Source: an uncultured Marinifilum sp. (GTDB lineage Bacteria; Bacteroidota; Bacteroidia; Bacteroidales; Marinifilaceae). Taken from it: a DNA stretch of 64,000 nt. The translations under genes and the position numbers were made by a program. The stretch is from the NCBI RefSeq assembly GCF_963677195.1, contig NZ_OY781918.1, positions 2,096,923-2,160,922 on the forward strand, written 5' to 3'. Every line of letters begins with the position of its first letter. The first letter of the stretch is position 1. The notes under the pieces are model-generated. The model had not been told where the DNA came from, searched no databases, and was given only the letters and a program-made list of their open reading frames with translations. Below, in pieces: positions 28,656-58,942 of this stretch.

Positions 28656-28941
28656 TCTGGCGGCTTTTTTCCGACATCGCCAAAGCAGGTGGGGTACCCA
28701 TAGCTGCAGAAGGCGTTAAGAAAAAAAATCCGTTTTAAAAATGGCTACATACTTTGTTTAGAATCTTTAGTAAGAATTATTACGAGCAATATTTTTTTAA
28801 TAAAAGATAGACCATTTTTTAAACATTACTTTTTTTTTAGCCTTTAAAGCGTGATGGGTCACCGATTGGCGTAGTCTTGAGCTTTTTGTTTCGTTTTTGG
28901 GTCAAGCCAAAAATGAAAAGTCTGTCCGGCTAGAGGACAAG
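28656..28941 (+). repeat. M5 structured repeat, copy 1 (core b, GTCC/GGAC tail)
   Basis: Consecutive hairpins: TGGCG/CGCCA; GCAG-TGGG/CCCA-CTGC; AAGGC/GCCTT enclosing core b; GTGA/TCAC; CTTGA/TCAAG; GTCC/GGAC. It contains the empty target TGAGCTTT that is occupied by IS66 in copy 2. Confidence 0.85.
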
Positions 28942-29651
28942 GAAGAAGATAGAGGTAACAAGCTTCAAGTAACAAGTAACAAGTTTCAAGCTCCAAAGTC
29001 CAAAGTTCAAATTCCAAAAAACCAAAATCCAAAGTTCAAAGTGTCGAAAAGCGCTGCACTGAGCAATAGAAAGTAATTTTTTTTGCCTGAAGGGCAAACA
29101 TATTTATAGCTCAGGGCAAATGAGCGTAGCGAATGTCATCCTGGGATAGAAAGTTCCCAAGGTAAATCGTCGCACAGCTTTGCTAAATTAAAGGCAGATG
29201 CCTTCTGCGACGAAAAAAGTAAATCCCGAAGTATCGGGACCAGCAGAGCTGGAAGGATAAAGGTGGAAAAGTTTAAAGGTGTAAAGGTGTAAAGGTGAAA
29301 GGGTGAAAGTCAAAGGTCGAAGGTCGAAAATCCAAAATCCAAAATCCAAAGTGACGAAAGGAGCTGCACTGAGCAATAGAAAGTAATTTTTTTTGCCTGA
29401 AGGGCAAACATATTTATAGCTCAGGGCAAATGAGCGTAGCGAATGTCACCCTGGGATAGAAAGTTCCCAAGGTAAATCGTCGCACAGCTTTGCTAAATTA
29501 AAGGCAGATGGCTCCTGCGACGAAAAGGTAAATCCCGAAGTATTGGGACCAGCAGAGCTGGAAATAGGACCCACAAATGACACAGATTGCTAATTAATAA
29601 TGAGCACTTGTAATGAGTAATGAAGAATTAAAAATGAATAATTAAAAATTT
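28942..29651. repeat. Repeat mosaic between M5 copies 1 and 2
   Basis: TCAAGTA/ACAAGTA heptamers (28962-29000), AAAGTCC/AAAATCC heptamers (to 29045), M3 29084-29213, and M4 29224-29253. Then octamer and heptamer tracts, M3 29394-29523, M4 29532-29562 and an AATTAAA tract. The sequence 28535-28880 is nearly repeated by 29535-29880, a duplication of roughly 1 kb period. Confidence 0.8.
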
Positions 29652-29939
29652 TCTGGCGGCTTTTTTCCGACATCGCCAAAGCAGGTGGGGTACCCATAGC
29701 TGCAGAAGGCGTTAAGAAAAAAAATCCGTTTTAAAAATGGCTACATACCTTGTTTAGAATCTTTAGTAAGAATTATTACGAGCAATATTTTTTTAATAAA
29801 AGATAGACCATTTTTTAAACATTACTTTTTTTTTAGCCTTTAAAGCGTGATGGGTCACCGATTGGCGTAGTCTTGAGCTTTGTAACCATCCGACCAAGCC
29901 CATCTTTTCTTTCATTTTTCGATAATTTAATTTTGGAGC

Positions 29940-30206
29940 ATGACAAAAGAAGAAATCATGTTTAAGGAGGTTGAGTTGTATTTGGAGAGCGATTTAAATC
30001 AGTATGAATTTTCGAAGGGAAAAGATTATACCCGACACGGATTACAGTATTGGCTGAAAAAATACCGTTTGCAAAATCCAAGTGAGGGATCCTGTCAATC
30101 TGAAGGGCATTTTCAAGAGATCAATTTATCGGATGGCAAAAAACAGGCTGAAAAAGTTATGGAAATCACGACAAAATCGGGAACTCAAATTATAATTTAC
30201 GAGTAG
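29940..30206 (+). CDS. tnpA: IS66 accessory protein TnpA (copy 2)
   Basis: 88 residues, identical to the protein at 13696. First gene of the element; its stop codon abuts tnpB. Confidence 0.85.
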   Translation: MTKEEIMFKEVELYLESDLNQYEFSKGKDYTRHGLQYWLKKYRLQNPSEGSCQSEGHFQEINLSDGKKQAEKVMEITTKSGTQIIIYE

Positions 30207-30569
30207 ATGATTGCAATTTCAACCAACACAAAAATATTTGTCTACAGTCAGCCTTGTGATATGCGCAAGGGCTTCGATGGCTTATCGGGTCTGGTACAAA
30301 ACAGGATGCAATTGGATCCTATGAATGGATACCTTTTTGTGTTTTTTAATAAAAACAGGACTCATGTAAAGATATTATCCTGGGATAGCGATGGATTTTG
30401 TATTTATTACAAACGTTTGGAAAAAGGCACTTTTAAGCGACCAACAGCACGAATTGATACTCCTAATTTTGAGTTAACTAATGAAGAATTATTCATGATT
30501 TTACGGGGAATTGATTTTGAAAAATGCAAGAAACGTAGAAGATATTTATCTACAAATTTTGTTGATTAA
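30207..30569 (+). CDS. tnpB: IS66 accessory protein TnpB (copy 2)
   Basis: 120 residues with the MRKGFDGLSGLV signature. Differs from copy 1 only at ILRGID versus ILQGID. Arg versus Gln lies near the C-terminus, outside the signature, so both are probably functional. Confidence 0.93.
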   Translation: MIAISTNTKIFVYSQPCDMRKGFDGLSGLVQNRMQLDPMNGYLFVFFNKNRTHVKILSWDSDGFCIYYKRLEKGTFKRPTARIDTPNFELTNEELFMILRGIDFEKCKKRRRYLSTNFVD

Positions 30570-30601
30570 AATTCTATGAATAATCAGGTTTTTAGAAGGC
30601 T

Positions 30602-32110
30602 TTGATGTATTTTAACATCATGAGTTTAAAGCTGGAAAATAAGAACAAAGATGAACTTTTGGAGTTAATTCAAAAGCAAAATTTGTTGATTCAGGAAAAT
30701 GAACAGATCATTACCAGCCAACAAAACTATATCAAACAATTACAGCGCATTGCATTTGGTAGTAAAAGTGAACGTTTTGCAAAAGGTTCTGTTGACGAAA
30801 ATCAATTAAGCCTATCTTTCGAAGAACTTGCCCAAAAAGATAAAGATATAAAGGATGAAACCGTAAAGGAAAAGATCAGTTATACCCGTAAAAAAGCCAG
30901 CAATCATAAAGGAAGAAACAAATTGCCGGAACATTTGCCTGTGCGTGAAATCATCATTAATCCGGAAGAAAATATAAATGGCTTAAAGAAAATTGGCGAG
31001 GAAAGAACCGAGATTTTAGAATATACACCAGGTAAGTTTTTCAAGTTGGTTTTAATTCGTCCAAAATACGAAAAAGAAAATCAGGAAGGTGTCTTAATTG
31101 CTAATATGCCCTCACGTCCCATTGAAAAATGTTTGGCCGGAAATGCCCTTTTATCTTCTATTTTGATTAATAAATATGTGGATCATCTGCCATTGTATCG
31201 TCAACGCCAGATTTTCAAACGAGCTGATATCGAAATTGCTCCATCAACTATCGATTCATGGGTACAGCAGTTGGGTGATCTGTTAAATCCGCTGTATGAA
31301 GCCATGGTAAATACTGTTAAAAATGATGGTTACCTGCAGGCTGATGAAACGCCAACCCGGGTTTTAGATAAACAGAAAAAAGGCAAAACCCATCGTGGAT
31401 TTTATTGGGTTTATCATTCGCCGCTAAAACGGATGGTTGTTTTCGATTATCAAAAGAGGCGAAATAAGGATGCTCCCCGAAAAATATTGAATGAATTTGC
31501 CGGATATTTGCAAACCGACGGATATAAAGTTTACGATCAGTATAAAAATAAAAAAGAAGTTACCCATTTGGCCTGTTGGGCTCATGCCCGCCGATATTTT
31601 GAAAAAGCACTGGATCAAGATCAAACCAGAGCCGAATTTGCAATGCTCCAAATTCAAAAGATATATGCCATTGAAAGAGAAATATCAGATTTATCTGCTG
31701 ATCAGAAAAAAGCTGTTCGCCTGGAAAAATCGCTTCCGGTTTTGAATAATTTTGGAAAATGGATTTGTAATGAAAGCAAGTTGGTACTTCCCAAAAGTCC
31801 CATTGGAAAGGCATTTTTATATGCCATTAATTTATGGGATAGTCTGCTGGCATATCTATATAACGGAGAATTGTTGATCGATAACAATCCTATTGAAAAC
31901 AGTATTCGTCCCAATGCACTTGGTCGCAAAAATTACCTGTTTGCAGGATCGCATGAAGGTGCAAAAAGAACAGCTATGTTCTATACATTCTTTGGAACCT
32001 GTAAAATGCACAATGTAGATCCTCAAAAATGGCTCAATTCAGTACTTGAACAAATTGCAGATCATAAAGTGAATAAATTGTATGAGCTATTTCCTCAGAA
32101 TTTAATGTAG
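30602..32110 (+). CDS. tnpC: IS66 transposase TnpC (copy 2)
   Basis: 502 residues, identical to the transposase at 14358: coiled-coil N-terminus, DDE sites in QADETPTRV, QTDGYKVYD and NNPIENSIRP. The alternative start is the ATG at 30620. Confidence 0.96.
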   Translation: MMYFNIMSLKLENKNKDELLELIQKQNLLIQENEQIITSQQNYIKQLQRIAFGSKSERFAKGSVDENQLSLSFEELAQKDKDIKDETVKEKISYTRKKASNHKGRNKLPEHLPVREIIINPEENINGLKKIGEERTEILEYTPGKFFKLVLIRPKYEKENQEGVLIANMPSRPIEKCLAGNALLSSILINKYVDHLPLYRQRQIFKRADIEIAPSTIDSWVQQLGDLLNPLYEAMVNTVKNDGYLQADETPTRVLDKQKKGKTHRGFYWVYHSPLKRMVVFDYQKRRNKDAPRKILNEFAGYLQTDGYKVYDQYKNKKEVTHLACWAHARRYFEKALDQDQTRAEFAMLQIQKIYAIEREISDLSADQKKAVRLEKSLPVLNNFGKWICNESKLVLPKSPIGKAFLYAINLWDSLLAYLYNGELLIDNNPIENSIRPNALGRKNYLFAGSHEGAKRTAMFYTFFGTCKMHNVDPQKWLNSVLEQIADHKVNKLYELFPQNLM

Positions 32111-32190
32111 TTGGCCGGATGGGTACTGAGCTTTTTGTTTCGTTTTTGGGTCAAGCCAAAAATGAAAAGTCTGTCCGGCTAGAGGACAAG

Positions 32191-32775
32191 GAAGAAGATA
32201 GAGGTAACAAGCTTCAAGTAACAAGTAACAAGTTTCAAGCTCCAAAGTCCAAAGTTCAAATTCCAAAAAACCAAAATCCAAAGTTCAAAGTGTCGAAAAG
32301 CGCTGCACTGAGCAATAGAAAGTAATTTTTTTTGCCTGAAGGGCAAACATATTTATAGCCCAGGGCAAATGAGCGTAGCGAATGTCACCCTGGGATAGAA
32401 AGTTCCCAAGGTAAATCGTCGCACAGCTTTGCTAAATTAAAGGCAGATGGCTCCTGCGACGAAAAAGTAAATCCCGAAGTATTGGGACCAGCAGAGCTGG
32501 AAAGTAAAAAGTCACTGCAGAATAATTTGCTGACTGCTGATAGCTGAAAGCTGATCGCTGACTGCTGATAGCTGGAAATAAGGTAAAGTGATAATGAACA
32601 GATTGCCGCGGCCTCGTTCCTCCGCCTCGCAAAGACAGAGGAAATTAGGGCAAGGAAAAGAATAAGTATAAAGGATACCATTGACCAACTAACCACTGAC
32701 TAATTTGCTGAGAGCTGAGAGCTGATAGCTGACTGCTGATAGCTGATAGCTGATAGTCGACAACCGCCAATTCCC
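32191..32775. repeat. Repeat mosaic downstream of IS66 copy 2
   Basis: TCAAGTA/ACAAGTA heptamers (32211-32240), AAAATCC heptamers, M3 32333-32462 and M4 32472-32500. GCTGATA/GCTGACT heptamers occupy 32520-32576 and 32705-32758, with M2 at 32601-32638 between them. No gene. Confidence 0.8.
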
Positions 32776-34401
32776 CTACAAACTACTCAAATCAATAGGT
32801 TCACCATTTTTAAATAAAACAATAAACGCACCAGCAACACCGCAGGAATTTTTAAACTTCTCAGCTTCCCGGTAAGTCTTAAACTGTCCGATAGCATATT
32901 TGTGCCATCCCGAAAGAAACTGGTGAGCAATAATCTCATTGCCCGAATAAATTTTGTATAACTCCTCGGCAGGAGCCGCATTTTTACAAGCCAGAATCTG
33001 TATTCTGTAAATTAATTCAGGTACTATTTGTTTAGGCGTAGGCGCCACATATTTTTCTTTGGCCGGCATTTCCTTGGCAAGAGCAATTTCTTTTGCAGGC
33101 TGCACAATTTTTTCTAGCCTATAAATATCATATCCGGCACCACGTTCCGATGAGAAAAAAGCCTCTCCCTCAGCCGTTTTAAAATACTGAATATCGTTAA
33201 ACGGACTGTTAACAGGAGCACCCATATTTTCCGGATTGCTCCAGCCACCATTGGCCAAACGCTCGCATCTGAAAATATCATATCCACCCATGCTGTTATG
33301 TCCTTTCGAGTTAAAGAACAACTCTTTTCCGTCGGCAGTAACAAATACATCAGCCTCGTCGAAAGGTGTATTAATGTGCAGGCCTATGTTTTTAGGAACC
33401 GACCAGTTTCCACCTTTTATCTTCGTACAAAAATAAATATCACATGCTCCGTAGCTGCCATTTCTGTCGCTCACAAAATAAAGCTCATTGCCCGCAATAC
33501 ATGCCGATGCCTCGCGCGACGATAAGGCATTAACCCCCTTTATTGCCTTTACAGCCGTCCACTTGCCACCTTTTTTCTCGGCTGTATAAATATCCCCACC
33601 ATTATCAATACCCGCATAAAAAGCAAAGGTATTATTACCAATAGGATCAACCAGAGCCACATTTAAAATATCATCGAAGGGAATATTCTCCATTTTAACA
33701 TCCTTAAAGCCATCTTTATCGGTGCTTACCGAATATACTTTTTCGATTAGCTTGCTGCCCGCATTAATTTTTCGCTGCGAGCTAAAATAAAATACATTAT
33801 CTACTTTAACAGGATTAAGATCGTTAAATCGGGAGTTAACATTTTCGTCTAAGCGACTAATGCTATGTTTTGCAGGTAATGATTGCAGATGAATTCCGCT
33901 TTTACACTCCCCAATATGCTTCTCACATAATTCTATCAGACTCTTATTTTTTTCGCCTCTTTTTCTAATTTCATTTTCGATGTTCTTATTAAACATCCTA
34001 ATGGCTTTAATAAATTGCGACTGGTACTGATAACTAAGTCCGATATAAAAACAAAGATCCTTGCTTACCATTGGGTTTAACTCATAAGCCTTGTCGAGAT
34101 ATTGTCTGGCTTTCTCCTTCTCATTACCCAGCAAATAACAAATTCCTATATTGTAATTCAACTCGGCATTGCTCTTGTTTAATTTGTAAGCTTCTAAAAA
34201 CAAAGAAATGCACTGCTCTGTGGCATTGGCATCCTGCTTATATAAATCCATTGCCTTCTTAATTTTTACATAGGCTATAGCCGATTTATCCTTCGCATTT
34301 ACAAATTCACTTTTTTTAACCGATAATAAATTCTGAGCATCTGCTTTAGCAATGCAGAACAGAGAAAAAATGAATATAAGAATGATGTTTTTAAAATTCA
34401 T
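32776..34401 (-). CDS. TPR-PD40 outer-membrane-associated protein with SPOR-like C-terminus
   Basis: About 541 residues from the preferred ATG at 34401 (MNFKNIILIF); three more codons are possible upstream. A signal peptide ends KADAQ. Tetratricopeptide repeats follow (NAELNYNIGICYLLGNEKEK, ARQYLDKAYELNP), then a PD40 propeller with repeated FxSDRNGSYGACDIYFC, FNSKGHNSMGGYDIFRC and FFSSERGAGYDIYRL blades. The C-terminal segment (YRIQILACK ... GWHKYAIGQFKTYREAEKF) resembles a SPOR or peptidoglycan-linked domain in place of OmpA. Related proteins belong to type IX/gliding or envelope machinery. It is transcribed away from the polysaccharide locus. Confidence 0.8.
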   Translation of the reverse strand: MNFKNIILIFIFSLFCIAKADAQNLLSVKKSEFVNAKDKSAIAYVKIKKAMDLYKQDANATEQCISLFLEAYKLNKSNAELNYNIGICYLLGNEKEKARQYLDKAYELNPMVSKDLCFYIGLSYQYQSQFIKAIRMFNKNIENEIRKRGEKNKSLIELCEKHIGECKSGIHLQSLPAKHSISRLDENVNSRFNDLNPVKVDNVFYFSSQRKINAGSKLIEKVYSVSTDKDGFKDVKMENIPFDDILNVALVDPIGNNTFAFYAGIDNGGDIYTAEKKGGKWTAVKAIKGVNALSSREASACIAGNELYFVSDRNGSYGACDIYFCTKIKGGNWSVPKNIGLHINTPFDEADVFVTADGKELFFNSKGHNSMGGYDIFRCERLANGGWSNPENMGAPVNSPFNDIQYFKTAEGEAFFSSERGAGYDIYRLEKIVQPAKEIALAKEMPAKEKYVAPTPKQIVPELIYRIQILACKNAAPAEELYKIYSGNEIIAHQFLSGWHKYAIGQFKTYREAEKFKNSCGVAGAFIVLFKNGEPIDLSSL

Positions 34402-35214
34402 AATAAGCAAGATTTAAATTGTATGTTCAGATTGTTCTAAAGTAATCAAAATAATACTTTTTATTGCATATTATTGATTAATGTGCATAAAAAACATTTC
34501 CCACGGCTTTTTTTATTGATTAAAGAAGACAATAGAAGTTAAATTTTTCTCTTTCTCATTCATTTTTTTTCTCAAAGTCTTTCTCAAATACGATTTCTAT
34601 TTAATTATAAGAATAGAAGATCTAGTTCTCTCTAGTTAGAATTATGTAAAGACTAATTGTTCGCTATTTATTCCTAAAATTGCGAATCAAATTATCTATA
34701 ATATTAGATGTAATCTTGATTACTAGTAGATGTAGAAAGTGTTCTTGTAAATTTTGTTTATTATCGACATAAATTATGTTCAAATAAAAAAAGTAATATG
34801 TTTATAAATATTGCTTCTTTCTTTAAAATTAAAAATCCTATAAAAGATTCGCTTGACAGGTCGAAATACTAGTTTAGTCCGTATAAATATGTATTTAATC
34901 AATAAAAAAATGTTGTTGGTGTTAGTTGGTCTTGTATTTCTATCTTTGTGAACAATCCTAAACAGACCTAAATGATAGGGCTAAAAATAGGATGCTTTTT
35001 AATAATGTTTACATACAGTGAGAATTATTTTTAATTAACATTATTAAAAAGTTAAACAGACCATTGCTATAATGGGACTGAAGGGGCGAAGCTGTGTTTA
35101 AGCACGACTATTTTTTTGGAGATTTTTCCCTTTTTAGCTCCTTAATTTTTATGAGTTACTGTTAACAATTAAAAGAGCATTATTTAGATTATAAAGATTT
35201 TACAATAAGAGAGG
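34402..35214 (+). promoter_or_regulatory. Long upstream/leader region of the UpxY-type gene
   Basis: No gene. A promoter candidate has TTGG at 34915 and TATCTTTG at 34941-34948 (22-nt spacer). Transcription would leave a leader of about 260 nt. The leader holds two related signals: AAACAGA followed by a CC..GG hairpin at 34960-34980 (CCTA/TAGG), and again at 35054-35076 (CCATT/AATGG). Between them is a perfect 15-bp inverted repeat, CTTTTTAATAATGTT (34995-35009) and AACATTATTAAAAAG (35037-35051). UpxY-family antiterminators act on such leaders in Bacteroides, so these are candidate recognition or pause elements (inference). Confidence 0.6.
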
Positions 35215-35748
35215 ATGCAGGAGAGACGAGTGATAAATTGTAAAAGGGAGTATTTTTGGTATGCCATATATACAAAATCGCGCTCGGAGCGAAAATTATA
35301 TCAGGACCTGCTCCACGATGGAATTGAAGCCTATCTGCCCTTAAAAAAAGAACTGAAAATATGGAGCGACAGAAAAAAATGGGTGGAATCGCCTCTTTTT
35401 AATTCCTACGTATTTGTAAGGGTTTCGGCTAAAGAATATCATAAGGCTATTGCTTCTACTTATGCAGTTTGTTACGTGAGTATCCGCGGTAAAGCGGTAC
35501 CCGTACCTGAAAATCAAATCGAGGCGCTTCGCATATTCTTAAGAGATGAAAATCGCAAGCTGGAGTTTACGAGTGCCGACCTTAAAACCGGCGATACGGT
35601 AGAGGTAATAGGTGGTTCGCTTAAAGGTGCAAAAGGCGAAATTGTACAAATAAGAGGCAAGCACCGACTGGTCTTGCGATTCGATAGCCTGGGAACCTGC
35701 CTCACTACCGAAATAAAAATTGAGGAAGTAAAAAAAACAAAGATTTAA
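35215..35748 (+). CDS. UpxY-family NusG-like transcription antiterminator
   Basis: 177 residues. The NusG N-terminal (NGN) domain has the WYAIYTKSRSERK-type start and FNSYVFVRVSAKEYHKAI. A C-terminal KOW region follows (GDTVEVIGGSLKGAKGEIVQ). Length and sequence fit the UpxY/LoaP-type specialised NusG paralogues. In Bacteroides, UpxY is encoded first in each capsule locus and prevents early termination of that long operon. Here too it heads the polysaccharide region, about 6 kb before rfbC, behind a structured leader. The intervening repeats may require such processivity (inference). Confidence 0.92.
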   Translation: MQERRVINCKREYFWYAIYTKSRSERKLYQDLLHDGIEAYLPLKKELKIWSDRKKWVESPLFNSYVFVRVSAKEYHKAIASTYAVCYVSIRGKAVPVPENQIEALRIFLRDENRKLEFTSADLKTGDTVEVIGGSLKGAKGEIVQIRGKHRLVLRFDSLGTCLTTEIKIEEVKKTKI

Positions 35749-36743: not shown

Positions 36744-37119
36744 AAGTGAAAAGGTGAAAGAGTGAAAGAGTGAAAGAGTGAAAAAGTGAAAGAGTGAAAG
36801 GGTGAAAAAGTGAATCCCGAAGTATCGGGACCAGCAGAGCTGGAAAAAGGATCCACAAATGACACAAATGGAACGAATTTTCACAAATAAAAGCTCCAAG
36901 ATTCAATAACTATTAACCAGTGACTGCCATAATTATTAATTACTCATTTTTAATTATTAATTTCTCGAAGCTTGCAACTGCCGCTGGCCATTGACTAATG
37001 ACCAATGACTACTGATCGCTGGAAGGTCCAAAGCATGCAGTCATCCTGAGGGAAGCGAAGCGACGAAGGATCTCAAAATAATTAAGAATTAAGAATTAAA
37101 AATTAAAAATTAAAAATTT

Positions 37120-37327
37120 TCTGGCGGCTTTTTTCCGACATCGCCAAAGTAGGTGGGGAACCCATAGCTGCAGAAGGCGTTAAAAACAGAATTCCATGAG
37201 TGAGGAACGAACGAATATTATTCTGTTTAGCCTTTAAAGCGTGATGGGTCACCGATTGGCGTAGTCTTGATTTTTTGTAACTTTTTTATCAAGAAAAAAG
37301 TTTAAAAAGCCCCTCCGGCTAGAGGAG
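37120..37327 (+). repeat. M5 structured repeat, copy 3 (core a, CTCC/GGAG tail)
   Basis: 208 bp. Core a carries the AAACAGAAT/ATTCTGTTT stem. The tail is CTTGAT/ATCAAG followed by CTCC/GGAG. Confidence 0.85.
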
Positions 37328-37858
37328 AAGAAAGAGAATTAAAGGATGAAAATCCAAAAAACAAAATCCAAAAAACAAAAAGAAAAAACCAAGCTTCAAG
37401 ATCAAGCACTGTAAGATAAAGAGATAATAAACATCGCGAAAGCAAAGCTTACCATAAGATAATAAACAGATTGCCGCGGCATCGTTCCTCCGCCTCGCAA
37501 AGACAGAAAAAATGAGGATAGGTGAATCCCGAAGCATCGGGACCAGCAAAGCTGGAAGGACAAAGGTGTAAAAGTATAAAAGTGTAAAGGTGTAAAAGTA
37601 TAAAAGTCACTGCAGACTAATTTGCTGACTGCTGACTGCTGATAGCTGATAGCTGATCGCCGTTAACAAAAAGGATCCACAAATAACACAAATGGAACGA
37701 ATTTTCACAAATAAAAGATCCAAAGTCCAAAGGTCGTTGCTGACAACCGACAACCGATAACCGATAACCGAAAACCAAATCTTGCAGTCATCCTGAGGGA
37801 AGCGCAGCGACGAAGGATCTCAAAATAATTAAGAATTAAAAATTAATAATTAAAAATT

Positions 37859-38140
37859 TCTGGCGGCTTTTTTCCGACATCGCCAGGGCAGGTGGGGAAC
37901 CCATAGCTGCAGAAGGCGTTAAGAAAAAAAATCCGTTTTAAAAATGGCTACATACCTTGTTTAGAATCTTTAGTAAGAATTATTACGAGCAATATTTTTT
38001 TAATAAAAGATAGACCATTTTTTAAACATTACTTTTTTTTTAGCCTTTAAAGCGTGATGGGTCACCGATTGGCGTAGTCTTGATTTTTTGTAACTTTTTT
38101 ATCAAGAAAAAAGTTTAAAAAGCCCCTCCGGCTAGAGGAG
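37859..38140 (+). repeat. M5 structured repeat, copy 4 (core b, CTCC/GGAG tail)
   Basis: 282 bp. Core b stem: AAAAAAAA/TTTTTTTT next to AAGGC/GCCTT, with the inner arm GTTTTAAAAATGG/CCATTTTTTAAAC. Confidence 0.85.
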
Positions 38141-38680
38141 AAGAAAGAGAATTAAAGGATGAAAATCCAAAAAACAAAAAGAAAAAACTAAGCTTCAAGA
38201 TCAAGCACTGTAAGATAAAGAGATAATAAACATCGCGAAAGCAAAGTTTACCATAAGATAATAAACAGATTGCCGCGGCATCGTTCCTCCGCCTCGCAAA
38301 GACAGAAAAAATGAGGATAGGTGAATCCCGAAGCATCGGGACCAGCAGAGCTGGAAGGATAAAGGTGTAAAAGTTTAAAAGTGTAAAGGTGAAAGGGTGT
38401 AAAGGTGTAAAAGTATAAAAGTCACTGCAGACTAATTTGCTGACTGCTGACTGCTGATAGCTGATAGCTGATCGCCGTTAACAAAAAGGATCCACAAATA
38501 ACACAAATGGAACGAATTTTCACAAATAAAAGATCCAAAGTCCAAAGGTCGTTGCTGACAACCGACAACCGATAACCGACAACCGAAAACCAAATCCCAA
38601 ATCTTGCAGTCATCCTGAGGGAAGCGCAGCGACGAAGGATCTCAAAATAATTAAGAATTAAAAATTAATAATTAAAAATT

Positions 38681-38962
38681 TCTGGCGGCTTTTTTCCGAC
38701 ATCGCCAAAGCAGGTGGGGTACCCATAGCTGCAGAAGGCGTTAAGAAAAAAAATCCGTTTTAAAAATGGCTACATACCTTGTTTAGAATCTTTAGTAAGA
38801 ATTATTACGAGCAATATTTTTTTAATAAAAGATAGACCATTTTTTAAACATTACTTTTTTTTTAGCCTTTAAAGCGTGATGGGTCACCGATTGGCGTAGT
38901 CTTGATTTTTTGTAACTTTTTTATCAAGAAAAAAGTTTAAAAAGCCCCTCCGGCTAGAGGAG
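38681..38962 (+). repeat. M5 structured repeat, copy 5 (core b, CTCC/GGAG tail)
   Basis: 282 bp, nearly identical to copy 4; together they reflect the superunit duplication of this block. Confidence 0.85.
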
Positions 38963-39403
38963 AAGAAAGAGAATTAAAGGATGAAAATCCAAAAAACAAA
39001 ATCCAAAAAACAAAAAGAAAAAACTAAGCTTCAAGATCAAGCACTGTAAGATAAAGAGATAATAAACATCGCGAAAGCAAAGCTTACCATAAGATAATAA
39101 ACAGATTGCCGCGGCATCGTTCCTCCGCCTCGCAAAGACAGAAAAAATGAGGATAGGTGAATCCCGAAGCATCGGGACCAGCAAAGCTGGAAGGACAAAG
39201 GTGTAAAAGTATAAAAGTGTAAAGGTGTAAAAGTATAAAAGTCACTGCAGACTAATTTGCTGACTGCTGATAGCTGACTGCTGAGAGCTGACTGCTGATA
39301 GCTGAGAGCTGAAAGCTGAAAGCTGATCGCCGACAACAAAAAGGATCCACAAATACCAATGAGCATTGCCCAATAATCATGCCCCATCATTAATCAAACC
39401 AAA

Positions 39404-39877
39404 ATGAACAAAAACCACTACATTACAATAATCCTAATACTCCTGTGCCTGTGTGTAAAAGCACAAGAACAAACACATCAATTTAAAAGGCACATTTACT
39501 CAATTGGACTAAACGCCTACGGACCATACGGCAGCGACATGGGACTAGAAGCATTCTACGATGTGCGCGTAAACAGCTGGCTTTCTCTAGGCGGATTAGG
39601 CGAAGTAGATATCAACCCCGATGTGATAGACGAAAAAATAGACCTCTTTTTAGCTGGCAGACTAAATATTCACCTGTTCAACCATCTGAAAGAGGAAAGT
39701 ACACACTGGGATCCCTACCTGGGTATAACCGGAGGATTAAGAGTAGACCCCTGGGTGAAAGATTACAACGGACATTACGACCTTTACGTGGGTGCACGTT
39801 ATTTTATTAAAAAAAATTGGGCCGTGTTTGCCGAAATTGGCTCCAGCGATGCCATTGGCATTAGCTTCGCAATTTAA
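39404..39877 (+). CDS. Small outer-membrane beta-barrel protein (paralogue 2 of 3)
   Basis: 157 residues with a signal peptide ending VKAQ. It shares GLEAFYDVRVNSWLSLGG, WDPYLGITGGLRVD, YDLYVGARYFIKKNWAVFAE and the terminal GISFAI with the neighbours at 36186 and 39912. The family is unnamed to me; short outer-membrane barrels of this size are usually passive pores, adhesins or anchors. Its stop is 34 nt before paralogue 3, so the two are probably co-transcribed. GC content is clearly higher than in the polysaccharide genes after 43 kb. Confidence 0.75.
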   Translation: MNKNHYITIILILLCLCVKAQEQTHQFKRHIYSIGLNAYGPYGSDMGLEAFYDVRVNSWLSLGGLGEVDINPDVIDEKIDLFLAGRLNIHLFNHLKEESTHWDPYLGITGGLRVDPWVKDYNGHYDLYVGARYFIKKNWAVFAEIGSSDAIGISFAI

Positions 39878-39911
39878 TAAAATCATAAGTCGTATAAATA
39901 AGCCCTTTGAT

Positions 39912-40466
39912 ATGAAACTTTTAATGTCCCCAAAAAAACAATATGCCACACTGGCTTTCCTAATGATCATTAGCCTTATCTGCCCGGCAGAAAACAAGGG
40001 CAGTGCAAATAATACAAATCAGGCAAATTGCCTTAAAGTACCCGAAAAATGGATGGAGGCCGTCAACTCTCGCCACCATTACTCCTTTGGTATCGATCGC
40101 GAAAACCATTGGGACGGAATGCTAGGCCTCGAGGCAATGTACGATGTGCGAATACATCCGAATTTTACAATAGGTGTGTACGGCGGCGTGGCTTTTAAAA
40201 ATGCCGACTGGCACAATACCACCGAAGTGCTCACTGGCTTTCGTACCAGCTACTTCCCCTGGGGTTTAGGCCAGTATAAAATGAGCCGACTGGAACCATA
40301 CATCTGCCTTACCGGCGGATTAAATATAGACGAGGCCCGACACGATTTCTACGAGCTTGAAGCATCTCTGCATGCCGGCGCCAGATATCGTATCGCTAAA
40401 AATTGGTCGCTCTATGCCGAAGCTGGTACCGGACTGGCTTGTGGGCTTACTTTTATGATGAGGTAG
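39912..40466 (+). CDS. Small outer-membrane beta-barrel protein (paralogue 3 of 3)
   Basis: 184 residues from the ATG at 39912. An open extension further upstream overlaps paralogue 2 and lacks a signal peptide, so I reject it. The signal peptide (MKLLMSPKKQYATLAFLMII) ends near CPAENKG. Barrel motifs shared with the other two: GLEAMYDVRIHPNFTIGVYG, LEPYICLTGGLNID, LHAGARYRIAKNWSLYAEAG and the end GLTFMMR. The three genes look like an expanded family within the locus, separated by repeats. Confidence 0.75.
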   Translation: MKLLMSPKKQYATLAFLMIISLICPAENKGSANNTNQANCLKVPEKWMEAVNSRHHYSFGIDRENHWDGMLGLEAMYDVRIHPNFTIGVYGGVAFKNADWHNTTEVLTGFRTSYFPWGLGQYKMSRLEPYICLTGGLNIDEARHDFYELEASLHAGARYRIAKNWSLYAEAGTGLACGLTFMMR

Positions 40467-40665
40467 GAAGATTTAAGGAACAAGGGACAAGGATAAAGGA
40501 TAAAGGTCGAAAGTCGAAAAGGTCGAAAGTCAAAAAGTCGAAAGTCGAAAGTCAAAGGTCAAAAGTCCAAATCTTGCAGTCATCCTGAGGGAAGCGCAGC
40601 GACGAAGGATCTCAAAATAATTAAGAATTAAGAATTAAAAATTAAAAATTAAAAATTAAGAATTT

Positions 40666-40869
40666 TCTGGCGGCTTGGGACCCGCATCATGAAAAATGCG
40701 AGAAGAATTGCAGTGATGGCTTAGTAAGACCGTGAAGCTGAGAACTTGTTCGAAGATCACGCGGCCGCACTTAGTCATTGCAAAAATTCAGCTTGTATTT
40801 TTAATGCGCGGAAGATTTTTTGCTTACTTTTTCATCTGAAAAAGGTAAGAGCCCCTCCGGCTAGAGGAG
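40666..40869 (+). repeat. M5 repeat, copy 6: foreign core c between M5 ends
   Basis: The left end (TCTGGCGGCTT) and the CTCC/GGAG tail are kept, but the interior is unrelated to cores a and b. It has its own stems: AAGCTGA/TCAGCTT, GCAT/ATGC, and CTTACTTTTT/AAAAAGGTAAG in the position of CTTGAT/ATCAAG. Confidence 0.75.
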
Positions 40870-41021
40870 AAGAAAGAAAATTAAAGATCCAAAGTCCAAA
40901 GGTCGTTGCTGACAACCGATAACCGATAACCGAAAACCAAATCTTGCAGTCAACCTGAGGGAAGCGCAGCGACGAAGGATCTCAAAATAATTAATAATTA
41001 ATAATTAAAAATTAAGAATTT

Positions 41022-41229
41022 TCGGGCGGCTTTTTTCCGACATCGCCAAAGCAGGTGGGGTACCCATAGCTGCAGAAGGCGTTAAAAACAGAATTCCATG
41101 AGTGAGGAACGAGCGAATATTATTCTGTTTAGCCTTTAAAGCGTGATGGGTCACCGATTGGCGTAGTCTTGATTTTTTGTAACTTTTTTATCAAGAAAAA
41201 AGTTTAAAAAGCCTCTCCGGCTAGAGGAG
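41022..41229 (+). repeat. M5 structured repeat, copy 7 (core a, CTCC/GGAG tail)
   Basis: 208 bp. The left arm starts TCGGGCGG, which weakens the first stem; the other stems are intact. Confidence 0.8.
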
Positions 41230-41451
41230 AAGAAAGAGAATTAAAGGATGAAAGTCGAAAGTCGAAAGTAAATCCCGAAGTATCGGGACCAGCAGAGCTG
41301 GAAAAAGGATCCACAAATAACACAAATGGAACGAATTTTCACAAATAAAAGCTCCAAGATTCAATAACTATTAACCAGTGACTGCCATAATTATTAATTA
41401 CTCATTCTTAATTCTTTTGGCTTGAGGACAAGGCAAAAATCAAAAACAAAC

Positions 41452-42021
41452 ATGAAATTTACCCCAACAAACATACCCGAAGTAGTAATTATAGAACCCA
41501 ATGTATTTGGGGATGACAGGGGCTACTTTTTTGAATCATTTAACCAAAAAGAATTTGAAGAAAATATAGGCCCTGTAGATTTTGTGCAGGACAATGAATC
41601 GAAATCCTCACGCGGGGTGCTGCGGGGATTGCATTTCCAGAAACCGCCTTTTACACAGGCCAAACTGGTGCGCTGCATAGAGGGTGAAGTTTTAGATGTG
41701 GCTGTTGACCTGCGTAAAGATTCACCAACCTATAAAAAATATGTTTCCGTGCTGCTCACAGGCGAAAACAAAAAACAACTATTTGTGCCACGTGGTTTTG
41801 CACACGGCTTTGTGGTGCTTAGCGAAAAAGCAACTTTCGCCTATAAGGTTGACAATTACTACGCCCCAAAACACGACACAGGAATTGCCTGGAACGATGA
41901 ACAAATTGCCGTAGACTGGCAAATCCCTGCACAAGAGGTACAGCTTTCGGGGAAAGACCAACTGCTGAAACCACTGAGGGAAACCCTGGTGCCGGAGTTT
42001 GGGGAAGAGGTGATGGCATAG
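41452..42021 (+). CDS. rfbC: dTDP-4-dehydrorhamnose 3,5-epimerase (RmlC type)
   Basis: 189 residues from the ATG at 41452, the start that fits the family (MKFTPTNIPEVVIIEPNVFG). Cupin fold. The catalytic-base His is His61 in RGLHFQ, with further active-site residues around VPRGFAHGF (His118) and the Tyr at FAYKVDNYY (Tyr131). It converts dTDP-4-keto-6-deoxyglucose to the L-rhamnose precursor. rmlA, rmlB and rmlD are not in the window, so they lie elsewhere or the enzyme serves a related sugar. It is the first biosynthetic gene after the repeat blocks, 53 nt before the epimerase. Confidence 0.95.
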   Translation: MKFTPTNIPEVVIIEPNVFGDDRGYFFESFNQKEFEENIGPVDFVQDNESKSSRGVLRGLHFQKPPFTQAKLVRCIEGEVLDVAVDLRKDSPTYKKYVSVLLTGENKKQLFVPRGFAHGFVVLSEKATFAYKVDNYYAPKHDTGIAWNDEQIAVDWQIPAQEVQLSGKDQLLKPLRETLVPEFGEEVMA

Positions 42022-50553: not shown

Positions 50554-50562
50554 ATAAGCTTA

Positions 50563-51513: not shown

Positions 51514-51647
51514 ACCTTCAGCTTCCCAAAAATTCTCCACCGAAAATTACTACAAAAAGCTGATGGAGATCTATCAGCAATAGAATAGCAAAAACCACAA
51601 TACAAGAATCTGAGATCTTCTATCTCACATCTCATATCTAAAAAACT

Positions 51648-54273: not shown

Positions 54274-54527
54274 GAAAGTCTAAAGTCAAAAGTCGAAGAT
54301 CCATTAACTACTGACCACTGACTAATGACCATTGACTAATTTGCTGACAACCGACAACCGATAACCGATAACCAAAGTCCAAAATCCAAAATCCAAAATC
54401 CAAAGGGTCAAAAAGCGCTGCACTGAGCATAGTCGAAGTGTCCTTGCAGTCATCCTGAGGGAAGCTTAGCGACGAAGGATCTCAAAATAATTAATAATGA
54501 GTAATTAAGAATTAATAATTAAAAATA

Positions 54528-54735
54528 TCTGGCGGCTTTTTTCCGACATCGCCAGGGCAGGTGGGGTACCCATAGCTGCAGAAGGCGTTAAAAACAGAAT
54601 CCCATGAGTGAGGAACGAGCGAATATTATTCTGTTTAGCCTTTAAAGCGTGATGGGTCACCGATTGGCGTAGTCTTGATTTTTTGTAACTTTTTTATCAA
54701 GCAAAAAGTTTAAAAAGCCCCTCCGGCTAGAGGAG
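54528..54735 (+). repeat. M5 structured repeat, copy 8 (core a, CTCC/GGAG tail)
   Basis: 208 bp, all stems intact. Core a reads AGAATCCCATG where other copies have AGAATTCCATG. Confidence 0.85.
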
Positions 54736-54910
54736 AAGAAAGAGGATACAAGTAGCAAGCTCCAAGTTTCAAGTTCCAAGCTTCAAAATCCAAAGTGTCA
54801 AAAAGCGCTGTACTGGGCGTAGTCGAAGTGTCCTTGCAGTCATCCTGAGGGAAGCTTAGCGACGAAGGATCTCAAAATAATTAAGAATTAAAAATGAATA
54901 ATTAAAAATT

Positions 54911-55118
54911 TCTGGCGGCTTTTTTCCGACATCGCCAGGGCAGGTGGGGTACCCATAGCTGCAGAAGGCGTTAAAAACAGAATTCCATGAGTGAGGAACG
55001 AGCGAATATTATTCTGTTTAGCCTTTAAAGCGTGATGGGTCACCGATTGGCGTAGTCTTGATTTTTTGTAACTTTTTTATCAAGCAAAAAGTTTAAAAAG
55101 CCCCTCCGGCTAGAGGAG
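54911..55118 (+). repeat. M5 structured repeat, copy 9 (core a, CTCC/GGAG tail)
   Basis: 208 bp. All stems intact; nearly identical to copies 8 and 10. Confidence 0.85.
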
Positions 55119-55265
55119 AAGAAAGAGGATACAAGTAGCAAGCTCCAAGTTTCAAGTTCCAAGCTTCAAAATCCAAAGTGTCAAAAAGCGCTGTACTGGG
55201 CGTAGTCGAAAGTCAGATTGTTAATTAATAATGAGTGAGTAATTAAAAATTAATAATTAAAAATT

Positions 55266-55473
55266 TCTGGCGGTTTTTTTCCGACATCGCCAGGGCAGGT
55301 GGGGTACCCATAGCTGCAGAAGGCGTTAAAAACAGAATTCCATGAGTGAGGAACGAGCGAATATTATTCTGTTTAGCCTTTAAAGCGTGATGGGTCACCG
55401 ATTGGCGTAGTCTTGATTTTTTGTAACTTTTTTATCAAGCAAAAAGTTTAAAAAGCCCCTCCGGCTAGAGGAG
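55266..55473 (+). repeat. M5 structured repeat, copy 10 (core a, CTCC/GGAG tail)
   Basis: 208 bp. One C-to-T change in the left loop; stems intact. Confidence 0.85.
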
Positions 55474-55566
55474 AAGGAAGAAAATTAAAGGTCGAAAGTC
55501 CAAAGTCCAAAGTCGAAAGTCGAAGGTCAAAAGTCCAAAAGCGCTGCACTGAGCATAGTCGAAGTG

Positions 55567-55648
55567 TCCTGGGATAAAGATGGATTTTGTATTTATTACA
55601 AGCGTTTGGAAAAAGGCACTTTTAAGCGACCAACAACACGAATTGATA
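55567..55648 (+). pseudogene. 82-bp relic of IS66 tnpB
   Basis: From TCCTGGGATA to CGAATTGATA this matches tnpB codons around WDSDGFCIYYKRLEKGTF (compare 14140-14215) with four differences. It joins neighbouring repeat modules directly at GTCCT on the left and GGTCATCCTGAG (M1) on the right, with no IS ends. Confidence 0.85.
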
Positions 55649-55851
55649 AGGCAGGTCATCCTGAGGGAAGCTTAGCGACGAAGGATCTCTCCGAACAATT
55701 AAGAATTAACAATTAAGAATTAATAATTATGGACGCAGATCCCGCAGAAAAACAGGAACTAAAATTCACCCTTTTCCCTGTCTGAATTTTCCAAAAAAAG
55801 GAAAACAGCAATTAGTAAAGCTTCAGCTCGAGAAGAAGAAAGAGAGCAAGC

Positions 55852-56135
55852 AATGGATTAGTGCGATTTTGAAGTGGATGAGAGCACTCTAGCGATGGAT
55901 TAGTGCGATTTTGGTCTGGATCACTGCACTCTAGCGATGGATCAGTGCGATTTTGGTCTGGATCACTGCACTCTAGCGATGGATTAGTGCGATTTTGGTC
56001 TGGATCACTGCACTCTAGCGATGGATCAGTGCGATTTTGGTCTGGATCACTGCACTCTAGCGATGGATCAGTGCGATTTTGAACTGGATTAGTGCACTCT
56101 AGCAGTGGATCAGTGCGATTTTGAATCAGATCATA
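55852..56135. repeat. 42-bp tandem repeat array
   Basis: Six to seven copies of a 42-bp unit (GTGCGATTTTGGTCTGGATC then ACTGCACTCTAGCGATGGAT and CA). Each unit splits into two related 21-bp halves. The minus strand is open across it (55812-56144), encoding a 14-residue repeat (QNRTDPSLECSDPD), but there is no signal peptide and the composition looks repeat-driven. I list it as a repeat; a real small protein is possible. Confidence 0.8.
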
Positions 56136-56380
56136 ATAATTCAATCATAATTATTAAAACTATTTCTAAATAAGCATAATGATAAGTTGTGCGACGCTCG
56201 AAAATACAGGATTCTAATTGATTACGACTATGGTTTCAAGACTGTTAGACTCATTTAGCTGAACAAAATTAATTTGGATAGCTATGATTTAAAATGTAAA
56301 TTCAGAACTCGTTCTAGTGAAAAGAATAAAAACTATGAACGATTAATTCATTTTTTTTTAAATCTTAAATGTAAAACTTT

Positions 56381-57031
56381 ATGAAATCAAAAGCTTTTTC
56401 CCAAAAACTAGAAAATTGTCGAGTTCTAATTTATAACAGCAGTAATGCCGATATTCTGCCTTATCTGACAGAAATTGGTGTCAATGAAGAATATCTTACT
56501 AGGGGAAAAACCATGTATCAGGAGGTTGCAGAATTAAGTGTTAATCAGCGTAAAGAATATCAGGAGCAATCTTTAGCTTACGATGATTATTTTGAGAGTA
56601 AAGAGCTTTGTGGAACAGCCTACAAACGAATTTTAAGTATTGTTAAGCTCATGGCTCGTGATGATGAAAATTTGCAAAATCGCTTATCTCTAGGAAATCG
56701 ATCCGAATACCAACGTGTTACCGATTGGATTTCCAACAGCTATCAGTTTTATGATGCATTACTAGCTGAAACCGATTTTCTGACCAAACTGGAGACCACT
56801 AAAATTACCAGTGAGACTCTTGCTGCAGAAAAGGAGGCCATTCTAAATTTAAAAGCCCTTCGGAATAAAGCGATTTCTGAAAAAGGACAGGCGCAGGAAG
56901 CTACTCTTATTCGGAATGAAAAAATGGAAGAATTAGAAGACTACTGTTACGAACTAAAAGGACTGGCTAAGATTGCTCTAGAAGACAAACCTCAGTATTT
57001 GGAGAGTCTTGGAATCCTTGTTCGATCCTAA
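56381..57031 (+). CDS. Helical protein of unknown function
   Basis: 216 residues, no signal peptide or membrane segment, predicted almost entirely alpha-helical. It has a long central helix-rich stretch (AEKEAILNLKALRNKAISEK) and charged ends, suggesting a four-helix or coiled-coil bundle. I do not recognise the family. It is monocistronic, preceded by 236 nt of AT-rich DNA without repeats and followed by a repeat mosaic. It interrupts the polysaccharide genes, so it may be a passenger rather than part of the pathway. Confidence 0.75.
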   Translation: MKSKAFSQKLENCRVLIYNSSNADILPYLTEIGVNEEYLTRGKTMYQEVAELSVNQRKEYQEQSLAYDDYFESKELCGTAYKRILSIVKLMARDDENLQNRLSLGNRSEYQRVTDWISNSYQFYDALLAETDFLTKLETTKITSETLAAEKEAILNLKALRNKAISEKGQAQEATLIRNEKMEELEDYCYELKGLAKIALEDKPQYLESLGILVRS

Positions 57032-57392
57032 ATAACAGGTTTACATATTTGAAATTTCGCGGGGTTCACATGTAGTGTATCCCGCCTTTTAATGAGCAAA
57101 ATTATTCAGCTTAAAGCATACAAAGTCAAAAAGTCGAAAGTCGAAGATCAAAAATCAAAAATCAAAAATCCAAAATCCAAGATCCAAAGTACAAAGGTCG
57201 TTGCTGACAACCGAAAACCAAAGTCCAAAATCCAAAATCCAAAATCCAAAATCCAAAGGGTCAAAAAGCGCTGCACTGGGCCTAGTCGAAGTGACAAAAA
57301 TCCAAAGCCTGCAGTCATCCTGAGGGAAGCGTAGCGACGAAGGATCTCAAAATAATTAATAATGAGTAATTAAGAATTAATAATTAAAAATT

Positions 57393-57600
57393 TCTGGCGG
57401 CTTTTTTCCGACATCGCCAGGGCAGGTGGGGAACCCATAGCTGCAGAAGGCGTTAAAAACAGAATCCCATGAGTGAGGAACGAGCGAATATTATTCTGTT
57501 TAGCCTTTAAAGCGTGATGGGTCACCGATTGGCGTAGTCTTGATTTTTTGTAACTTTTTTATCAAGCAAAAAGTTTAAAAAGCCCCTCCGGCTAGAGGAG
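57393..57600 (+). repeat. M5 structured repeat, copy 11 (core a, CTCC/GGAG tail)
   Basis: 208 bp. The loop of the second hairpin is GAA rather than GTA; stems intact. Confidence 0.85.
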
Positions 57601-57780
57601 AAGGAAGAAAATTAAAGGTCGAAAGTCCAAAGTCGAAAGTCGAAAGTCGAAGGTCAAAAGTCCAAAAGCGCTGCACTGAGCATAGTCGAAGTGTCCTTGC
57701 AGTCATCCTGAGGGAAGCGCAGCGACGAAGGATCTCAAAATAATTAATAATGAGTAATTAAGAATTAATAATTAAAAATA

Positions 57781-58062
57781 TCTGGCGGCTTTTTTCCGAC
57801 ATCGCCAGGGCAGGTGGGGTACCCATAGCTGCAGAAGGCGTTAAGAAAAAAAATCCGTTTTAAAAATGGCTACAAACCTTGTTTAGAATCTTTAGTAAGA
57901 ACTATTACAAGCGATATTGTTTTAATATAAGATAGGCCATTTTTTAAACATTACTTTTTTTTTAGCCTTTAAAGCGTGATGGGTCACCGATTGGCGTAGT
58001 CTTGATTTTTTGTAACTTTTTTATCAAGCAAAAAGTTTAAAAAGCCCCTCCGGCTAGAGGAG
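57781..58062 (+). repeat. M5 structured repeat, copy 12 (core b, CTCC/GGAG tail)
   Basis: 282 bp. Core b carries a linked set of changes (GAACTATTACAAGCGATATT) shared with copy 13 but not with copies 1-5. Confidence 0.85.
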
Positions 58063-58215
58063 AAGGAAGAAAATTAAAGGTCGAAAGTCGAAAGTCGAAA
58101 GTCGAAGGTCAAAAGTCAAAAAGCGCTGTACTGGGCGTAGTCGAAAGTCAGATTGTTAATTAATAATGAGTGAGTAATTAAAAATTAATAATTAAAAATT
58201 AATAATTAAAAATTA

Positions 58216-58498
58216 TCTGGAGGCCCATTGACATCGCCAAAGTAGGTGGGGTACCCATAGCTGCAGAAGGCGTTAAGAAAAAAAATCCGTTTTAAAAATG
58301 GCTACAAACCTTGTTTAGAATCTTTAGTAAGAACTATTACAAGCGATATTGTTTTAATATAAGATAGGCCATTTTTTAAACATTACTTTTTTTTTAGCCT
58401 TTAAAGCGTGATGGGTCACCGATTGGCGCAGTCTTGACCTTTTTGTTTCGTTTTTGGGTTAAGCCAAAAATGAAAAGCCTGTCCGGCTAGAGGACAAG
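58216..58498 (+). repeat. M5 structured repeat, copy 13 (core b, GTCC/GGAC tail)
   Basis: The left arm is altered (TCTGGAGGCCCATTGACATC), disrupting the first stem. The core is like copy 12 and the tail like copies 1 and 2. Confidence 0.8.
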
Positions 58499-58682
58499 GA
58501 AGAAGATTGAAGGTCGAAAGTCAAAAGTCCAAAGTCGAAAGTCAAAAGTCCAAAAGTCAAAAAGCGCTGCACTGAGCATAGTCGAAGTGTCCTTGCAGTC
58601 ATCCTGAGGGAAGCTTAGCGACGAAGGATCTCAAAATAATTAAGAATTAAAAATTAAGAATTAAAAATTAAGAATTAAAAAT

Positions 58683-58942
58683 TTCTGGCGGTTTTTTTCC
58701 GATATCGCCAGGGCAGGTGGGGTACCCATAGCTGCAGAAGGCGTTAAAAACAGAATTCCATGAGTGAGGAACGAGCGAATATTATTCTGTTTAGCCTTTA
58801 AAGCGTGATGGGTCACCGATTGGCGCAGTCTTGACCTTTTTATTCACGATATAATTTTACGGGTGTTCATGGTCTCACTTCGTTCGGCAGTTTCGTTTTT
58901 GGGTTAAGCCAAAAATGAAAAGCCTGTCCGGCTAGAGGACAA
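58683..58942 (+). repeat. M5 structured repeat, copy 14 (core a, GTCC/GGAC tail, loop insertion)
   Basis: Core a is joined to the GTCC tail, a combination not seen in the other copies. About 48 nt (from TTCACGATATAATTTTACGG to CGTTCGGCAG) are inserted in the loop of the CTTGACC/GGTTAAG hairpin. Confidence 0.8.

Follow-up and report, generated by a model that had tools for sequence, protein, structure and literature searches.

A stretch of 64,000 nucleotides (the window; positions 2096923-2160922 of the 4.80 Mb, one-contig genome of an uncultured Marinifilum sp., with coordinates below given as window positions unless stated otherwise) carries a cluster of copies of a gene-free palindromic repeat, M5, referred to here as the element. 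Pairing within the element is kept by matched changes, both across relatives and between the copies of one genome. The reading that we prefer, and to which we give about an even chance, is that the element moves as a non-autonomous repeat and is selected for the folding of its + strand. A unit with a predicted two-part + strand fold would be read by enzymes supplied in trans, and new copies would arise through movement of the unit. The recognised form would be the single-stranded + strand, as RNA or as single-stranded DNA (ssDNA), and the cluster in the window may have been built by local duplication and by exchange among neighbouring copies. Head and tail included, the units in the window are 208-283 bp long, too short for a gene, and their flanks are A/T-rich with simple repeats.

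The predicted fold and its conservation

The predicted fold comprises one long irregular hairpin (D1, 29 pairs; RNAalifold on alignment A1) and a second hairpin (D2). A linker, often CTTGAN or CTAGNN, follows D1 and leads into the T-rich stem of D2, whose loop often starts with the complement of the linker; a small terminal stem after D2 is present in the window's family and in one other family. The parts of the copy at 37120 are predicted as follows.

~37137-37266, + strand: D1; GAC with GTC, CGCCA at 37142 with TGGCG at 37257 (predicted fold)
within D1, + strand: inner pairs, CCCAT at 37161 with ATGGG at 37244 and AACAGAAT at 37185 with ATTCTGTT at 37220 (predicted)
37266..37302, + strand: D2; linker CTTGAT at 37266, stem AACTTTTTT at 37279 / AAAAAAGTT at 37294
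37288, + strand: D2 loop, ATCAAG, which complements the linker CTTGAT
37313..37327, + strand: terminal stem, CTCC-GGCTAGA-GGAG

The original prediction, made from the letters of the window, had drawn the element as a fixed series of local hairpins. AAGGC/GCCTT and CTTGA/TCAAG were retained, but the local stems at GCAG-TGGG/CCCA-CTGC and GTGA/TCAC were not; in relatives the partner of CCCAT is ATGGG, on the far side of the apex (98.8% of this helix's cells paired), and in another genus GTCAAAT/ATTTGAC fills the position of CCCAT/ATGGG.

Alignment A1 holds 21 rows, aligned by sequence alone, from relatives found by plain DNA similarity. Two-sided changes occurred in 18 of its 29 pairs, and 95.4% of the cells were paired, compared with 83.3% when the 3' letters were shuffled and 35-48% when the partners were slid. 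The covariation score of A1 was 0.384 as against 0.156 in the shuffled alignments, none of 500 being as high, while the count of further pair types was less striking (22 of 500 shuffles as high). A second alignment, A2, consists of 70 model matches, and here all 29 pairs had two-sided changes, 94.2% of the cells were paired and the score was 0.595 as against 0.194 shuffled, again with 0 of 500 as high. Since A2 was fitted to the model it leans toward it, unlike A1 and the alignments used for the wobble test below. The suggestion of selection on a fold, which had been offered together with the remark that a wider alignment without covariation, or a known family, would speak against it, was supported, the covariation lying far above the shuffled and slid controls.

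Chance palindromes or low-complexity drift, with no real feature behind them, could be envisaged given the A/T-rich flanks with simple repeats, and the single copy at 37120 folds as + strand RNA only 2 standard deviations better than its own shuffles (z -2.07; z -3.29 for the + strand as DNA). This explanation is refuted by the covariation against both kinds of control and by the matches in other families and classes, and we leave it next to no probability.

The comparison could be extended to the copies of a single genome. Genome G837 holds ten copies at different genome places, of which most flanks differ while D1 and D2 are common to them (by eye). Eight were aligned, L318 and L319 being left out as the extraction pattern missed both, and all 352 of 352 pair cells were intact, although ten pairs were variable and five had changed on both sides. 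Shuffling of the 3' letters broke 8.3 cells on average and never fewer than 2 (2000 shuffles), against 0 observed. Unselected mutations after insertion would be expected to break pairs; therefore either each copy is selected, or all derive from folded, active lineages.

The strand that folds

Wobble pairs were compared with A-C cells in alignments made from sequence only, with the structure drawn on the + strand, and the ratio was 19:7 in A1, 44:5 in an alignment of 32 rows and 73:1 in one of 21 rows from g226, a genus of the same class. With the structure drawn on the opposite strand, this asymmetry was inverted. The consensus energies were also poorer on the reverse strand than on the + strand (-18.69 vs -22.19, -15.07 vs -21.12 and -24.99 vs -41.18). 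Because of the wobble asymmetry and these poorer energies, the + strand is taken as the form that folds.

RNA is most strongly favoured by the wobble pairs, and ssDNA by the mini-hairpins found at the tips of D1. These arguments bear on the main rival, which stands next after the mobile repeat and which we hold possible, though clearly on the doubtful side: a dispersed structured RNA kept for a job at each site. Such an RNA, lying after or between genes, would be cotranscribed with them, and through its + strand fold it would govern how mRNA is processed, how stable it is, or how the genes of an operon are balanced; movement would be rare and secondary. The fully paired copies of G837, more intact than decay after insertion would leave, argue for such an RNA, as do the strand-specific, RNA-like wobble pairs; its gene context is considered below.

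Copies of the element in the window

The original prediction had named 14 places. A search with R2, a covariance model built from 70 rows that include three (one shortened) from the window cluster and this genome's separate copy, found the element at 13 of them, in every case on the + strand. The copies are distributed around polysaccharide synthesis genes.

28656..28938, + strand: copy, core b, tail GTCC/GGAC (R2 match, sequence inspection)
29652..29881, + strand: copy, core b, tail broken by IS66, whose left end was placed by eye at ~29882 (R2 match)
37120..37327, + strand: copy, core a, tail CTCC/GGAG (R2 match, predicted fold)
37859..38140, + strand: copy, core b, tail CTCC (R2 match)
38681..38962, + strand: copy, core b, tail CTCC (R2 match)
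40666..40869, + strand: head TCTGGCGGCTT and CTCC tail only, not a copy of the main hairpin (no R2 match)
41022..41229, + strand: copy, core a, tail CTCC (R2 match)
54528..54735, + strand: copy, core a, tail CTCC (R2 match)
54911..55118, + strand: copy, core a, tail CTCC (R2 match)
55266..55473, + strand: copy, core a, tail CTCC (R2 match)
57393..57600, + strand: copy, core a, tail CTCC (R2 match)
57781..58062, + strand: copy, core b, tail CTCC (R2 match)
58216..58495, + strand: copy, core b, tail GTCC (R2 match)
58683..58940, + strand: copy, core a, tail GTCC, D2 region carrying a small insert (R2 match)

Both cores and the main hairpin are missing at 40666, where the body is a different palindrome (TTGCAGTGATGGCTTAG...CTTAGTCATTGCAA). 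The place at 29652 does hold a copy with core b, as had been proposed, but its tail is interrupted by the insertion sequence IS66. This is the second of two IS66 copies in the window (13963-15863 and 30207-32107), whose TnpB and transposase open reading frames (ORFs) have equal lengths and near-equal Pfam scores. The account of the cores and tails as interchangeable parts agreed with our inspection: cores a and b are unrelated in sequence and occupy the same position, the terminal stem is either CTCC/GGAG or GTCC/GGAC, and all four combinations are present (a with CTCC 6, b with CTCC 3, b with GTCC 2, a with GTCC 1).

As the copies of the cluster have flanks in common, they look like local duplicates and not like 14 independent instances. 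Outside the window, a DNA search of the genome found a single separate copy, at genome position 2518686, and just beyond the window, at genome position 2161217, a fragment of the left arm.

Exchangeable tips, D2 and modular bodies

The tip of D1 often has the form TGTTTGA-[small hairpin]-GAGTT. Among 82 pattern-matched tips, a set that includes a few accidental matches, 23 were GCGNAGC and 6 were GCGNNAGC, the rest including longer hairpins and tips with no evident hairpin. In the orthologous copies of G837 and another genome, G1212, the tips are GCGATAGC and GTCCCGAAAGCTTTCGGGAC respectively, and only 4 differences occur over the other 160 positions. The swap is of the kind seen between cores a and b in the window. 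Core b itself is old; a related form of it with a compensated stem was seen by eye in G028.

In D2, the CTTG/CTAG linker was present in 82 of 138 distinct segments obtained by automatic extraction, with 17 linker/loop types. For these linkers, the only ones entered in the test, 26 of 34 tested positions were complementary between linker and loop, whereas shuffles gave a mean of 17.9, and 3 of 10000 were as high. Other linkers are mixed: CATTGAT, for example, fits ATCAAG, whereas GGCGGAC does not fit GACTGTAG.

Other bodies share the outer parts of the element. A second large palindromic body (TTGCAGTGATGGCTTAGTAAG...CTTAGTCATTGCAA) with the same head and tail occurs at 40666-40869 and in locus L062 at ~800-900, and a further copy apparently starts just outside the window. 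Since the 40666-type palindrome carries it, the D2-type tail occurs under different bodies. In L054, L025 and L026 a tail hairpin of that kind comes after a third body (GTCAGCCTGCCG...CAGGCTGAC). An insert of ~45-70 bases, ATTCATGA-like, lies in or beside T-rich hairpins in several genera (58683 in the window, and L029, L061, L281, L282, L320, L321, L102 and L104), and once or twice also in a D1 arm.

A broader conjecture may be formed here, which we consider quite unlikely. M5, the 40666 body and a GTCAGCCTG body would be the different 5' bodies of a phylum-wide class of bacterial elements resembling short interspersed nuclear elements (SINEs), that is, gene-free folded RNAs with a common 3' module (D2 and the terminal stem), which a module-recognising machine would copy back into the chromosome, the tips and cores being replaceable caps.

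Presence, absence and gene context

The alternative put forward in the original prediction, a modular non-autonomous mobile element, gained support from presence and absence at one gene junction and from copies lying inside larger elements with inverted-repeat ends. One G837 copy sits between an emrA-like (HlyD) and an emrB-like (MFS) gene, the names being given by eye from sequence. A search for this junction matched 326 of 398 g226 genomes, and among the best 30 of the 326 the element was present in 2 (G837 and G1212); the other 28 had no model match, with both genes in one locus in all 28. In G881, G902, G1006, G1162 and G1140, emrA and emrB nearly abut. The extra DNA in G837 amounts to 345 bp, consisting of 54 bp, the 168-bp unit and then 123 bp. 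As regards the empty sites that had been proposed as a test of mobility, absence was found at 28 of 30 loci of this junction, but no precise site with a target duplication was found for the element alone. In g226 the length of D1 plus D2 is 166-173 bp, or 213-216 bp with an insert. Copy number ranges from 0 to 19 among relatives, and one unit has opposite orientations at the same place in G005 and G002. A search for an empty site at L027, made with the protein beside it, gave matches in 4 of 9 genomes; one of these was the genome of L027 itself, and the other matches reached at most 61% identity.

In G002 the element lies within units of 520-610 bp with similar 23-base ends on both sides (GGATCACTGGTAAAAGTTGGGTC, some mismatched). 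One end in G005 and G026 matches this pattern within 2 mismatches, and under a looser pattern a poorer second end lies ~650-670 bp off in 2 of 5 G026 loci. Eight G002 contig ends (L254, L256-L262) show other multi-copy sequence behind GGATCACTGGTAAAAGTTGGGTC ends, visible for ~127 bases. The unit in L044 has an 8-base flanking repeat, AGTTTTAT; visual inspection of six further copies gave none. All of these observations would fit an element that is a passenger in ordinary transposons, moved by an insertion sequence with terminal inverted repeats (TIRs) as a miniature inverted-repeat transposable element (MITE), the hairpin playing no part. However, the end pattern, allowing 2 mismatches, was absent in G000, G001, G003, G004, G033, G039 and G050, and of these G000, G033, G039 and G050 hold copies of the element. 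The g226 copies end near D1 and D2 with no inverted repeats by eye, and the conservation of the fold is left unexplained. We consider a passenger of this kind very unlikely.

The genes beside the copies bear on the structured RNA introduced above. Simple ORF calls around 39 copies in the window's family gave 14 between convergent and only 1 between divergent genes, with 18 in tandem and 6 lacking a neighbour, and in a wider set of 55 copies 22 lie in sense between two genes, as would suit a cotranscribed RNA; so would the retention of its position in four genomes of one genus. Against such a function, 13 of the 55 are antisense to both neighbours and 9 lie between divergent genes (10 are between convergent genes and 1 is without a neighbour). 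The copies adjoin unrelated genes, no Pfam family occurring in more than 4 of 105 neighbour ORFs (60 loci), and the range of copy number is likewise hard to reconcile with a job at each site. A mobile repeat selected for its fold remains the reading that we prefer.

Distribution in Bacteroidota

As had been proposed, covariance models were built and Bacteroidota genomes were searched with them; covarying pairs were present, and matches were obtained in other families and classes. In the window's family, 22 of 56 genomes and 6 of 17 genera were positive by plain DNA similarity. A model from A1 found 15 of 393 genomes positive in the order, and a second model did so for 12 of 395 phylum genomes, of which some lay near the E-value limit; the window's own genome is included in all three counts. 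In g226, 12 of 41 genomes were positive. These counts are lower bounds, as the genome searches score few candidates each (~8 in the phylum search) under strict filters; even so, most genomes lack the element or gave no match to it.

A pattern scan of named contigs gave 88 stretches, of which 80 were searched; the model matched in 27 and not in the other 53. All but one of the 27 belong to Marinifilum, Labilibaculum or Ancylomarina (26), the remaining one being a weak match in Flammeovirga (F. aprica, L162 at 4721-4868, 37 bits, away from the pattern). Same-strand arrays at ~290-470 bp spacing, like that of the window, occur in other families (L132/L139/L143 in G653, L125/L134/L141 in G500, and L326 in G856), and pairs of oppositely oriented copies within ~300 bp were seen in L053, L030, L124, L135, L137 and L095. 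Phage and plasmid records gave no match with a G837 copy (L300), and a plasmid search with a window copy gave a single match, 47 bases of tail, in a plasmid of Aureibacter.

RAYT genes and the weighing of mobility

RAYT genes (PF01797) were considered as a partner of the element. They were present in 22 of 22 positive genomes of the window's family and in 9 of 34 negative ones. As the association proved weak across the phylum, and the element was not beside the RAYT gene in 30 loci, the candidate was rejected. Several RAYT genes of the family are flanked by short repeats of their own, e.g. CCTCGGGCTTTAGCCCGAGG and CCGTAGGTGCGACAATATGGTAG (L063-L090, by eye).

The same genes enter into a further explanation, that of an ssDNA element handled by RAYT-like HUH/Y1 transposases, as proposed for GTAG repetitive extragenic palindromes (REPs). 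Hairpins with GNA or GNNA loops and at least two G-C pairs form extra-stable DNA mini-hairpins, GCGAAGC melting at 78 C, according to one report (PMC4686876), and 29 of the 82 tips are GCGNAGC or GCGNNAGC, which are loop types of that kind. The constant presence of RAYT genes in positive genomes of the family also agrees with it. However, no full element and only other short repeats (by eye) flank the RAYT genes, the association is weak in the phylum, G026 shows no clear replication-strand bias, and the frequency of wobble pairs (73 of 920 paired cells in the g226 alignment) is more RNA-like. We regard handling of this kind as unlikely.

A number of results weigh against the mobile repeat that we favour. 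Because the extra DNA at the G837 emrA/emrB site is 345 bp against a 168-bp unit, the moving unit cannot be given fixed ends; a clear target duplication was also lacking there. At the L057 site, the copy of G050 is absent in G049 but no clean empty site could be recognised, the spacer being unalignable. A resident function would equally account for the four genomes of one genus in which a copy is retained at one and the same site, and the gene contexts of the wider set show no clear preference. No transposase or reverse transcriptase was found among the 25 commonest of 145 Pfam families in the 105 neighbour ORFs. In the complete genome G026, 10 or 11 of 17 copies, depending on where the terminus is placed, fell on one side of the replication-strand count (by hand), the terminus being taken from the noisy skew of twenty 8-kb samples. 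RAYT genes in the phylum occurred in 24 of 25 positive and 16 of 25 negative genomes, some by weak matches, and 30 RAYT loci (flanks of up to 1.5 kb, some ending at a contig edge) contained only a 22-base match, in L084. Matches are also sparse: with ~8 candidates scored per genome, 383 of the 395 genomes of the phylum gave none. Lastly, relative to its own shuffles, copy 37120 taken alone has its better fold on the - strand, with z -3.87 compared with z -2.07 for the + strand.

Relation to known repeats and RNAs

The original prediction knew of no described family that matches, and our searches agreed with this. Rfam 15 gave only four tRNAs in the window at gathering score, and nothing up to E 5 in 36900-41500, which covers five of the listed places. 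A literature search, from which subscription papers were mostly out of reach, found no description of the element. Because REP/RAYT features failed and TIR/MITE features occur only in some genomes' carriers, the element was assigned to none of the families tested.

Short gene-free repeats are common in bacteria, but selection for a fold is known for few of them. Enterobacterial repetitive intergenic consensus sequences or intergenic repeat units (ERIC/IRU) are intergenic imperfect palindromes of 100-200 bp in Enterobacteria, with many copies, no ORF and internal insertions, and no dedicated transposase is known for them. The element resembles them in architecture, as a multi-copy, gene-free, intergenic imperfect palindrome, and by analogy with ERIC-type palindromes it would work as they do. 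In contrast, it belongs to another phylum and has the complementarity of D2 loop and linker; its tip is exchangeable, and all the modelled pairs have changed on both sides. As a gene-free palindromic repeat the element is of a known kind; what is new is the two-part fold, the exchangeable tip and the phylum-wide covariation.

Like MITEs, the element is dispersed and has no ORF, and some copies lie inside TIR-ended units; unlike them, it lacks the end pattern in four copy-bearing genomes and its fold is conserved. Integron attC sites are likewise strand-specific imperfect hairpins with a variable tip, and the copies of the window are clustered in one orientation; elsewhere, however, copies occur in both orientations, and visual inspection of the hairpin base revealed no attC-like boxes. 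GTAG/CGTC-tagged REPs are described as 20-40 bp sequences with a tetranucleotide tag, often beside RAYT genes and hypothesised to be miniature transposons mobilised in trans (PMC3733652). As far as that description goes, the element shares with them dispersed palindromes, arrays and inverted pairs, and differs in its size (166-283 bp as against 20-40 bp) and in not lying beside the RAYT genes of the 30 loci. A survey of RNAs from the human microbiome reports palindromic candidate RNAs, mainly from Bacteroidetes, of which the four named are 80-132 bp long and linked with particular genes or with phage domains (PMC8040213); these are palindromic and Bacteroidetes-borne like the element, and on their descriptions are set apart from it by size and gene ties.

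The element shows strong covariation, which extends to copies at different loci of a single genome and across families and classes, and it has no matching Rfam entry. Should a mobilising enzyme read the fold, the element would offer a way to find that enzyme; should it be a regulatory RNA, it would be a widespread one that resembles intergenic repeat DNA. With its covariance model, public genomes and RNA-seq data can be used to test both questions.

Other features of the window

A NusG-family protein, perhaps a specialised antiterminator, is encoded at 35215-35748 and precedes the genes for polysaccharides. A further family of repeats, GCCTGAAGGGCAAACATATTTATAGCCCAGGGCAAATGAGCGTAGCGAATGTCACCCTGGG, whose middle is of the GAGCGNAGCGA type, occurs at 28426-28560 and 29090-29220 and in L279, L281 and L282, and sequence related to this GCCTGAAGGGCAAACATATTTATAGCCCAGGGCAAATGAGCGTAGCGAATGTCACCCTGGG family is present in the carriers of G026.

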